Assembly (NCBI GenBank): GCA_022446985.1
Contig: JAKVBD010000004.1
Location: forward strand, 1-64,000
Reading direction: 5' to 3'
Source of the DNA: Lentisphaerales bacterium
Lineage (GTDB): Bacteria > Verrucomicrobiota > Lentisphaeria > Lentisphaerales > Lentisphaeraceae
Length of the DNA: 64,000 nt
Position 1 is the first letter of the stretch. Each line of letters opens with the position of its first letter. A program made the translations under genes and the position numbers. The notes beneath the pieces were generated by a model that did not search any database, was not told the origin of the DNA, and saw only the letters and a list, made by a program, of their open reading frames with translations. This document shows, piece by piece, positions 2,449-5,159 of the stretch.

Positions 2449-3647
2449 TAGATAACTTTTGAAACTTTATCGTAGACTAATTTATAACGGCTCATGCCAG
2501 GAACTCTTTCTTTATAGATTTCTTCCTGCTCTTTGAATTGAATGATCACCACAGGATCGAGACAATCTTGAAAGCTGACGTATGAGTTTTTAGCGTTTTT
2601 CGAGAAAAGCATCTTTTTCAGCTTGTGGAGTTTCCCTTCCAGGTTCATCAAAGTTTTTTGCTTTTTCTTAAACTCCAAAAGTTTGTTTCTGATCGGTTCT
2701 TTGGCCTTCTCTCCCATTTTCCCCGGGTTTTCGGCTTTGCAGGCTGCAGAGACATAGGTTTCGATTTCTTGCTGGGAGATGAGAATTTTACGCTCCATTT
2801 CGGAGTGGAGGGTTTTGGCTTCTTTGAGTTGAGCCTGGACACGCAGGTCTATTCCAACTATTAACTTTCTGTCACTGCCTTCAGCCCCGGCAGATTTTAA
2901 ATGGATCGAATCCAAAGCATTTATGACTCCGCCAACGGTAGTTCCTCTTGTCTTAGAGCTGACTCCCAATCCCATCACTTTTACATGACTGCGGCTGTAT
3001 ATATGGACCATTAAAGTATGAGTTTTAACTTCGACATCGTCATCACAAATTAGCAGACTGTTTTCCAGGTAACCTATCTTATAGTTTTTCTGGCAATAGG
3101 TGAGAGTTCTTTTACCATTTGCTCTCCAGTCAATTTCTAGCTTGCCTTTGCAATTTATTTTTACGTGATCTTCGACAGTTTTGAGAATAGTGAGATTACC
3201 ACTAGCATCGACTTTAGTTGTGTTTCTAACACGCTCTTGATAAACTAGGTCTCCACTGAAGTTTATAATCCCAGTTTGAGCACTTATATCTTCTTTGATA
3301 ATGGGTTTGTTAGTCAGGTGATTAAGAGAATCTGGACTAAAACGAATAAGTCCGGCTTCTAGTGAGAGGTAGATGCATTGACGGTTTCCTTTCATAACAC
3401 GGACAATACCTTCTCCATACTCGAAGAAAGAGGGAATGTCATCCGGGTTTATTTCAGTTTGTTCTTCATCAAGTTTTTTTTGTTCCTCTGGAGGACGGTT
3501 AATGTCGACAACCGCAAGTACTTCATTCTTTTTAACTTCGTGATAAGCACAGGCATTAGTCTTCTCGTGTCCATCGATGAACACCCTAAGCCTTTCTTCC
3601 ACTTTCTGAATGGCAAAATGAAGATTATATTTGGTTTTTTCGGCCAA
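2448..3647 (-). CDS. FapA/DUF342-like polymer-binding protein
   Basis: A 399-residue protein resembling the DUF342 (FapA) family: an N-terminal segment, a central right-handed beta-helix-like stretch with repeating short strands (about 110-250, including ISAQTGIINFSGDLVYQ and KINCKGKLEID), then a long charged coiled coil (about 270-350) and a short C-terminal beta region. FapA proteins bind polymers or regulate signalling; in several bacteria they sit beside chemotaxis or two-component genes. Here the gene lies between a response regulator (2 bases upstream) and two kinases, so a role as scaffold or sensor in that pathway is inferred. Family assignment is from overall pattern, not from a search. 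Confidence 0.75.
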   Translation of the reverse strand: MAEKTKYNLHFAIQKVEERLRVFIDGHEKTNACAYHEVKKNEVLAVVDINRPPEEQKKLDEEQTEINPDDIPSFFEYGEGIVRVMKGNRQCIYLSLEAGLIRFSPDSLNHLTNKPIIKEDISAQTGIINFSGDLVYQERVRNTTKVDASGNLTILKTVEDHVKINCKGKLEIDWRANGKRTLTYCQKNYKIGYLENSLLICDDDVEVKTHTLMVHIYSRSHVKVMGLGVSSKTRGTTVGGVINALDSIHLKSAGAEGSDRKLIVGIDLRVQAQLKEAKTLHSEMERKILISQQEIETYVSAACKAENPGKMGEKAKEPIRNKLLEFKKKQKTLMNLEGKLHKLKKMLFSKNAKNSYVSFQDCLDPVVIIQFKEQEEIYKERVPGMSRYKLVYDKVSKVI

Positions 3648-4534: not shown

Positions 4535-4803
4535 AATTTAAGTTGTTTGGGTAAATGTTTGACTGACAATAACCTTGAGATATGTCGTGTTATATGTATC
4601 AGTTGTCGATAATTGTGACTTAAGCGTTTGGTGTTTATTGGAATTACTGGCTGTTTGTTTTTTTAAGAGCCAGGTGTTTTTAACAATTTTTCGACTAATT
4701 GGTAGAAGCAGTTAGCGCAATTTTATGCCGGATTTCATTTTTTATGAAGCAGTCAATTATTAACAAGTATTTGCTTCGCTCAATCGAGTAGCAAAGGATG
4801 CTC

Positions 4804-4831
4804 TTGAAATACCCTCAGAATATCCTAAAAT
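4804..4831 (+). promoter_or_regulatory. sigma-70-type promoter of the permuted tRNA-like RNA
   Basis: TTGAAA at 4804-4809 and TAAAAT at 4826-4831, 16 bases apart, make a good housekeeping promoter. The predicted start, about 4838-4840, falls immediately before the first paired base of the RNA described next, which supports both calls. Confidence 0.55.
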
Positions 4832-4840
4832 ATATATCAA

Positions 4841-4987
4841 GAGGCCATGGTAGTTCATACTTCTCATATCTTTAAGATACCCTGTCGCAGGTTCGAATCC
4901 TGCCAGAGTTCAAGCAGTTGGATTCTGTAGCTCAGTCTGGTAGAGCAGGTAATGATCAGAACTACCGCTTTCCTCGGTTTTCTTTTT
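4841..4987 (+). ncRNA. circularly permuted tRNA-like RNA
   Basis: Two tRNA halves are present in reversed order. The upstream half has anticodon-stem bases TACC (4878-4881), variable loop CTGTC (4882-4886), T arm GCAGG-TTCGAAT-CCTGC (4887-4903) and 3' acceptor strand CAGAGTT (4904-4910). After the loop GCAG comes the 5' half: acceptor strand GATTCTG (4921-4927), TA, D arm GCTC-AGTCTGGTA-GAGC (4930-4946), A, and GGTA (4948-4951). The acceptor strands pair fully (7 bp, two G-U), extended to 10 bp by CAA/TTG, closed by GCAG. GGTA pairs with TACC. T8, A14, G15-C48, G18-G19, G46 and the T loop are all canonical. An outer stem GGTAGTTC (4849-4856) with GAACTACC (4959-4966), then GAGG (4841-4844) with CCTC (4972-4975), encloses everything and leads into a T-rich end (4978-4987). 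No CCA is encoded. The anticodon cannot be read off; the loop region holds CTCATAT at 4863-4869. Whether a working tRNA is made is unknown. Confidence 0.7.
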
Positions 4988-5159
4988 TAAATCCTTCCAT
5001 ATTCAGTAATTTTCGGTAATAGTTTTACAGTATAGCAAATAAGTTCAAAAGCTGCAGGTTCTGTATAGTAGTGACAGGTATGAGATAGGCTGTAGATTGA
5101 AACCTTATTTCAGTTTTCATAACATGTTAATCAGCGAAAGTTAAAAAAGGGATATTCAA

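Follow-up and report, generated by a model that had tools for sequence, protein, structure and literature searches.

A putative YrlA-like small RNA with a permuted tRNA body and a split anticodon arm in a Lentisphaerales bacterium

The bacterial Y RNAs of the YrlA type consist of a stem formed by both ends and of a tRNA-like domain with D, T and acceptor arms; YrlA binds the Ro60 protein Rsr via the stem and PNPase via the tRNA-like domain, as described in a review (PMC8394870). Two further systems come close to the RNA described here: tRNA genes of algae and archaea with a circular permutation, which places the 3' half ahead of the 5' half, and the permuted two-piece transfer-messenger RNA (tmRNA), which carries a permuted tRNA-like domain in bacteria. 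We analysed a stretch of 64,000 nucleotides (nt) from a Lentisphaerales bacterium (contig JAKVBD010000004.1, positions 1 to 64,000; in the following: the window). At 4841-4987 lies the sequence for a permuted tRNA body: a T arm comes first, then an acceptor hairpin of 10 base pairs (bp) that is sealed by a loop, then a D arm, and the two ends are brought together by an outer stem. As a whole, this RNA is probably best explained as a YrlA-like small RNA of the Y-RNA type, and its identity as a Y-RNA-like tRNA mimic is very likely. A sequence-only reading of the same DNA had regarded the arrangement, outside tmRNA, as new to bacteria. This claim fails, since the architecture is that of the bacterial Y RNAs as described in PMC8394870: the striking structure is one of the permuted tRNA mimics that bacteria already possess as Y RNAs.

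All parts of the RNA, its candidate promoter and its T-rich stretch lie on the forward (+) strand. The RNA begins with the 5' strand of the outer stem, GAGG (4841-4844), which pairs with CCTC (4972-4975) in the sequence and in both the minimum free energy (MFE) and the centroid structure. It is followed by the inner stem, GGTAGTTC (4849-4856) paired with GAACTACC (4959-4966), as indicated by the sequence, the folds and a comparison with shuffled sequences. TACTTC (4858-4863) contains the motif (ACTTC or ACTAC) found after the inner stem of many relatives in our alignments and stem table. Then come an anticodon-like hairpin, TAT-CTTTAAG-ATA (4867-4879, tRNA nt 29-41), whose counterpart covaries in 20 relatives, nt 42-43 (CC, 4880-4881) and a variable region CTGTC (4882-4886), the latter two read from the sequence and the junction pairs of relatives. 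The T arm GCAGG-TTCGAAT-CCTGC (4887-4903) is supported by the sequence, the Rfam alignment and the folds. The acceptor strands CAGAGTTCAA (4904-4913) and TTGGATTCTG (4918-4927) pair at 10 of 10 positions, including two G-T pairs, over the loop GCAG (4914-4917), and the resulting hairpin (4904-4927) contains no CCA, as seen from the sequence, the folds and the comparison with tandem tRNAs. U8 and A9 (4928-4929) and the D arm GCTC-AGTCTGGTA-GAGC (4930-4946), again present in the sequence, the Rfam alignment and the folds, complete the block at 4928-4946. Nt 26-28 (AGG) and a linker, both taken from the sequence, occupy 4947-4958 and lead to the 3' strands of the inner and outer stems (4959-4975).

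Read across the cut, the anticodon stem is complete. Nt 27-28 (GG, 4948-4949) can pair with nt 42-43 both by eye and when scored, and nt 29-31 (TAT, 4867-4869) with nt 39-41 (ATA, 4877-4879), giving 5 bp in total below the loop CTTTAAG. Folding of the RNA yielded z values of -2.4 (147 nt) and -2.6 (140 nt), with 4 of 200 and 1 of 200 shuffled sequences folding equally well. The centroid structure contains the outer stem, the inner stem, the T arm, the acceptor hairpin and the D arm, and fold and shuffle comparison agree that the 5' and 3' ends are joined by a stem. An inner stem as good as the observed one occurred in 9 of 1000 shuffles without and in 3 of 500 with constrained position. Thereby, sequence and centroid confirm the permuted tRNA-like structure noticed in the sequence-only reading (arms, fully paired acceptor, outer stem). 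The sequence is able to form a permuted tRNA body whose acceptor is sealed by a 10-bp hairpin and whose end stem branches off the anticodon stem at the 28/29 junction.

The Rfam model of YrlA (RF02553) was the best match at the site (45.0 bits, E-value 5.6e-9 in 401 nt). The RNA also tops the nine YrlA matches in its own genome; the other eight all coincide with tRNA loci, in most cases tandem arrays. Like YrlA, it carries D, T and acceptor arms on an end-to-end stem (PMC8394870), and the Rfam alignment reveals the same permuted order and sealed acceptor in both. The window RNA differs from YrlA in its short outer stem, in a score below the Rfam gathering score and in that no Rsr gene was found. 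Because the Ro60 partner was not found and the score lies below the cut-off, we call the RNA Y-RNA-like and not a proven Y RNA. The two also differ in the anticodon arm, for which the window RNA has the missing pairs on the far side of the cut; this is not mentioned for YrlA in the literature examined. Bacteria and phages also have permuted tRNA-like RNAs that adjoin Rsr. Three of these (loci L163, L374 and L320) share with the window RNA the inner stem, ACTTC, the anticodon hairpin, the T arm, the sealed acceptor and the D arm, and differ from it by having Rsr in the locus.

The sequence-only reading had also considered a bacterial permuted tRNA gene whose product is cut and religated to a working tRNA. 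The cloverleaf with its 5-bp anticodon stem across the junction would suit such a gene. The order of the halves is that of the permuted tRNA genes in algae and archaea. Unlike these, the window RNA has a sealed acceptor and no splice mark. Instead of mature ends there is a 4-nt loop, with neither CCA nor a free acceptor end. By inspection, no bulge-helix-bulge was found at the junction, where 10 and 9 nt lie between the 8-bp helix and the anticodon stem. The anticodon loop is atypical, too: with UUA as its anticodon it would decode UAA, a stop codon, and C32 and G38 are able to pair. A check for a missing isotype, proposed in the same reading, did turn up a gap, as neither tRNA-Ile(GAT) nor tRNA-Ala(TGC) was among the tRNAs identified in the genome; a further tRNA match, truncated by the end of contig C135, stayed unassigned. 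However, genes for these two tRNAs usually sit in rRNA operons, which draft assemblies lose, and were probably lost with them here. Maturation to a working tRNA is thus unsupported and appears very improbable, whereas the other proposal of that reading, an acceptor-sealed tRNA mimic acting as regulator or decoy, fits. ARAGORN called no tRNA in the window, and an ordinary tRNA was rejected on this ground. Permuted tmRNA was rejected as well, since the genome contains a normal one-piece tmRNA (contig C209, tag ANEDYALAA); unlike in the permuted tmRNA, the D arm of the window RNA is canonical, and a reading frame for a tag was not seen.

Relatives were sought as a T arm followed by a D arm within 8-26 nt, an arrangement present in at least 116 stretches of public genomes. 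Among the 121 matches listed, neither arm belonged to an ordinary tRNA in 34 cases, one arm in 14 and both in 73. At least 120 stretches of viral contigs exhibited the same pattern (19, 21 and 87, respectively, among the 127 matches listed). A pattern using the window's own loop was found in none of the viral contigs. DNA similarity searches returned 233 phage and 23 plasmid records, of which the best 20 covered at most 43% and 41% of the query, respectively, and none of these 80%.

For the analysis of covariation we picked by eye 20 permuted RNAs carrying the ACTTC motif or one much like it, excluding the window RNA, and wrote their common structure by hand. In these relatives 97.5% of 366 cells were paired, and 81 two-sided changes were counted versus a mean of 28.2 in shuffles. 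The covariation value was 0.532 compared to 0.123 in shuffles and at most 0.109 in slid versions of the alignment. Compensatory changes, which the sequence-only reading had suggested to look for, were found at all 7 acceptor pairs and all 3 pairs of the anticodon-like hairpin, are weakly represented in the T stem (1 of 5) and are absent from the D stem (0 of 4). A covariance model built from the 20 relatives, R1, scores the window RNA with 52.3 bits (E-value 2.2e-11). At an E-value of 0.01 or below R1 matched all 197 genomes of the class, since tandem tRNAs are recognised by it as well. All 49 class loci checked by ARAGORN (29 new, 20 fetched by place) contained one or more ordinary tRNAs, and therefore the class search cannot show how widely the RNA is spread.

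The split anticodon arm is not a peculiarity of the window. We examined 67 permuted RNAs, some of them doubtful, leaving out the window RNA and fixing the register with a 5-nt variable region. A three-pair anticodon hairpin was present in 39 of them, 37 of which have U33. Both junction pairs (27-43 and 28-42) were present in all 39, including the 37 with U33, for which 2000 shuffles reached no more than 20. Without the loci whose search pattern prescribes part of the loop, the junction pairs were found in 29 of 29 (27 with U33; shuffle maximum 17). An earlier count with a partly free register had given 41 of 42, but as this register favoured junction pairs the fixed-register count is preferred. 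The common loop is C-U-N-N-U-A-A, with U36 in 28 and A37 in 29 of the 37 (19 of 27 each without the pattern-prescribed loci), and 18 of the 37 have Asn or Lys anticodons. The full hairpin is lacking in 28 of the 67 in the fixed register; by eye, the classic YrlA of locus L218 is too short there. The relatives bearing the hairpin resemble tRNAs that have been opened at the 28/29 position.

A similar opening was observed in RNAs with unpermuted order. A pattern of TACTTC, loop and T arm gave 45 matches on 44 viral contigs, duplicates included: 16 are permuted, 14 have the D half upstream and 15 are unclear. The 14 forms with the D half upstream exhibit tRNA order, 7 of 7 acceptor pairs and an insert of about 40-70 nt between nt 28 and 29. 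Inserts ending in TACTTC occur on the IMG/VR contigs L459, L461, L467, L469, L473, L474, L476, L479, L480, L483, L484, L485 and L497. TACTTC, as well as TTAA, was prescribed by the search pattern and hence is no independent evidence. Hairpin and U33 were present in 11 of 15 tRNA-order cases, and 10 of these 11 had both junction pairs (shuffle maximum 8). L474 folded into a tRNA-like structure with D, T and acceptor arms (z -2.1), L469 did not (z -0.4). These phage genes are possibly the unpermuted counterpart of the permuted Y RNAs. In titles and abstract openings we found no description of Y RNAs that are unpermuted or carry an anticodon, which is no proof of absence. Within that part of the literature two features are apparently new, namely the complete anticodon arm with its cut at 28/29 and a similar phage RNA in tRNA order. 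Taken together, the split arm and the phage forms suggest that the Y RNAs originated from a tRNA opened at 28/29, and also a possible role as bait for anticodon-loop enzymes.

Inserts of another kind were seen in Vibrio phage D479 (L514, OZ195776.1). It has four annotated tRNAs of 116-124 nt (1679-1802, 1830-1952, 1969-2084 and 2994-3113), in which ARAGORN with introns allowed places inserts in or near the anticodon arm. By eye, the inserts contain a hairpin and are unlike the TACTTC type.

Many permuted RNAs are accompanied by Rsr. From 31 loci of the public genomes we accepted 25 as permuted by eye and dropped 6 as unlikely; 18 of the 25 genomes concerned contain a match to TROVE, the Ro60 domain, at an E-value of 0.001 or below. 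A profile of 11 aligned Rsr proteins, 10 of them from these same 25 genomes, detected Rsr as a reading frame within the DNA fetched for 32 out of 44 chosen loci; the 44 are these 25 loci, those of the class genomes G060 and G085, and 17 of 18 viral loci. The count of 32 includes near-copies (L163/L305, L385/L387), and some of the 12 loci without Rsr are cut by contig ends or hold doubtful permuted RNAs. In a second sample, the 44 viral loci with the TACTTC pattern, Rsr was found in 20 (permuted 8 of 16, tRNA order 1 of 13, unclear 11 of 15). A permuted RNA without a visible Rsr is thus no rarity in phages, although the stretches are incomplete. Across the class the profile matched 20 of 197 genomes at an E-value of 0.01 or below, with full-length proteins in G060, G085 and G076. 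Rsr adjoins both clear YrlA matches of the class, those in G060 and G085; the Pfam TROVE model by itself missed both of these proteins and the Rsr profile found them.

This bears on the alternative that the window RNA is an ordinary Y RNA which binds Rsr and serves as the handle of an Rsr-PNPase complex, its rsr gene being located in a missing part of the assembly or too divergent to be recognised. The frequent company of Rsr at permuted loci and the proteins missed by TROVE agree with this. Furthermore, the assembly is a draft (271 contigs, 95.78% complete, 5.36% contaminated) and the window starts where its contig starts, leaving only 4.8 kb visible upstream of the RNA; therefore an rsr gene may have been missed. 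Against it, no Rsr was detected in the RNA's own genome (TROVE at an E-value of up to 1, the 11-protein profile at up to 0.01), and the profile found none at the latter threshold in the only same-genus genome; the 64-kb window contained none either. We regard this alternative as rather unlikely, and an orphan state with no Ro60 partner as somewhat more probable than its opposite.

Two side observations concern Rsr in the class. Six loci, L277-L282 (genomes G115, G166, G106, G165, G163 and G051), hold divergent Rsr-like proteins, with two matches each and best E-values of 1e-24 to 1e-32; in L280 the matches of R1 were weak, at 12-13 bits, and the other five loci yielded nothing up to an E-value of 1. 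The locus with the full-length Rsr gene of G076 (L274) contains a weak R1 match at 2910-3004 (26.1 bits, E-value 2.5e-4), possibly its Y RNA.

Several results weigh against a Y RNA of the described type in the window. Apart from the missing Rsr match in its own genome, its YrlA score of 45.0 bits is lower than the gathering score of 69, a value not reached by the two clear class matches of G060 and G085 either (66.9 and 59.9 bits). The anticodon-like hairpin appears in neither the MFE nor the centroid structure, and the MFE structure pairs this stretch differently. Its loop CTTTAAG departs from the CTNNTAA common to the permuted relatives beside Rsr, keeping U33 and A37 and losing U36. The inner stem is convincing singly (at most 25 of 500 shuffles, position constrained) in only 5 of 32 relatives; these remained from 34 given references after one without anchor had been dropped and another had proved to be the window itself. 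A loose Ro60-side motif of the outer stem, improvised from alignments, is absent from the window and from 21 of 42 relatives. In the same-genus genome, the operon found downstream of the RNA (response regulator, FapA-like protein, histidine kinase) recurs with a regulator of 66% identity followed by apparently the same two genes; the upstream neighbour differs, no such RNA was found in the 1.5 kb upstream of the operon, and the genome yielded no YrlA match at an E-value of 1e-5 or below. Because of the different neighbour and the missing RNA, the window RNA is apparently either not old at its present place or was lost in the relative. Finally, tandem tRNAs reach 44.7-54.9 bits with R1 (best 20 matches) and up to 60.6 bits in the class. 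Since tandem tRNAs score like the window RNA, the score cannot separate a Y RNA from the remnant of a tandem array, and the case rests on anatomy, i.e. the absence of CCA, the 10 acceptor pairs, the ACTTC motif, the inner stem and the split anticodon stem.

Such a remnant, which would join one tRNA's 3' half to the 5' half of its neighbour, had been named in the sequence-only reading as part of what would overturn it. Not only do tandem tRNAs score alike in both models, but adjacent like tRNAs also pair their acceptor strands, with 7-9 bp in 59 of 68 adjacent pairs. The details, however, differ. In the 68 pairs the stretch between the acceptor strands comprises 21-61 nt with at most 9 bp, and CCA (nt 74-76) is present in 66. 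Among the permuted RNAs, the 38 that form 5 or more acceptor pairs have 13-26 nt there (the search pattern allowed 8-26), with CCA in 4 and a pairing of 10 bp in one. The window RNA has 24 nt, 10 bp over its 4-nt loop and no CCA. Its T and D arms are flawless, and its flanks, instead of being the other tRNA halves, pair mutually where the relatives have the inner stem. Within its own genome, the best DNA matches are short and belong to two different tRNAs, Pro on the T side and Asn on the D side. Decayed tandem tRNAs are therefore disfavoured on CCA, acceptor pairing and flanks, and we consider them improbable as the source of the RNA.

A Y-RNA-like RNA would be transcribed by itself, presumably from a candidate promoter at 4804-4831. 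CCA addition and charging would be impossible for the sealed molecule. It could offer its T, D and anticodon loops to tRNA-binding proteins, for instance anticodon nucleases, PNPase or modification enzymes of the TruB and DusA kind. With no Ro60 gene found, a free decoy or a tether for another protein would be likelier than the handle of an Rsr-PNPase complex. That the RNA works without Rsr is fairly probable. A decoy role would need no Ro60 and suit an orphan, and a tether with another partner would suit it nearly as well; our preference for a decoy is tentative. If the orphan state is true, a Y-RNA-like RNA has been kept without Ro60, and the function as tRNA mimic is separable from it. A wider scheme is conceivable, though on balance unlikely: bacterial and phage Y RNAs of this type might be whole tRNAs, with their anticodon arm, opened at 28/29 by the Y stem. 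They would exist in tRNA order, as phage genes resembling tRNA-Asn or tRNA-Lys whose anticodon stem holds a Y-like stem, and in permuted order with a sealed acceptor, and the window form might have outlived or never needed Ro60, serving as a decoy for enzymes acting on the tRNA body or the anticodon loop.

PADLOC, applied to 8 neighbouring proteins, matched an ABC-type ATPase to ATPase models (best mad3, 8.5e-28) and the response regulator once and weakly; the other six gave nothing.

The candidate promoter, TTGAAA-16-TAAAAT, is sigma-70-like with 10 of 12 matches in the scan and a predicted start at about 4838-4841. Behind the stem lies a T-rich stretch (4976-4988, T-run 4978-4988), recognised from the sequence, which probably acts in intrinsic termination. 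Both signals proposed in the sequence-only reading were thus located, with less certain meaning: the promoter is one of 5 promoter-like sites within 711 nt on both strands (2.2 on average in shuffles), and the terminator scan listed no hairpin for the RNA, the T-run coming after the long-range outer stem. Two further features were noticed around the promoter. By eye, a hairpin-like sequence, TTTGCTTCGCTCAATCGAGTAGCAAAG, lies upstream of it at 4769-4795. An inverted repeat, CTCTTGAAATA/TATATCAAGAG (91%), occupies 4801-4811 and 4833-4843 on either side of the promoter and may represent an operator.
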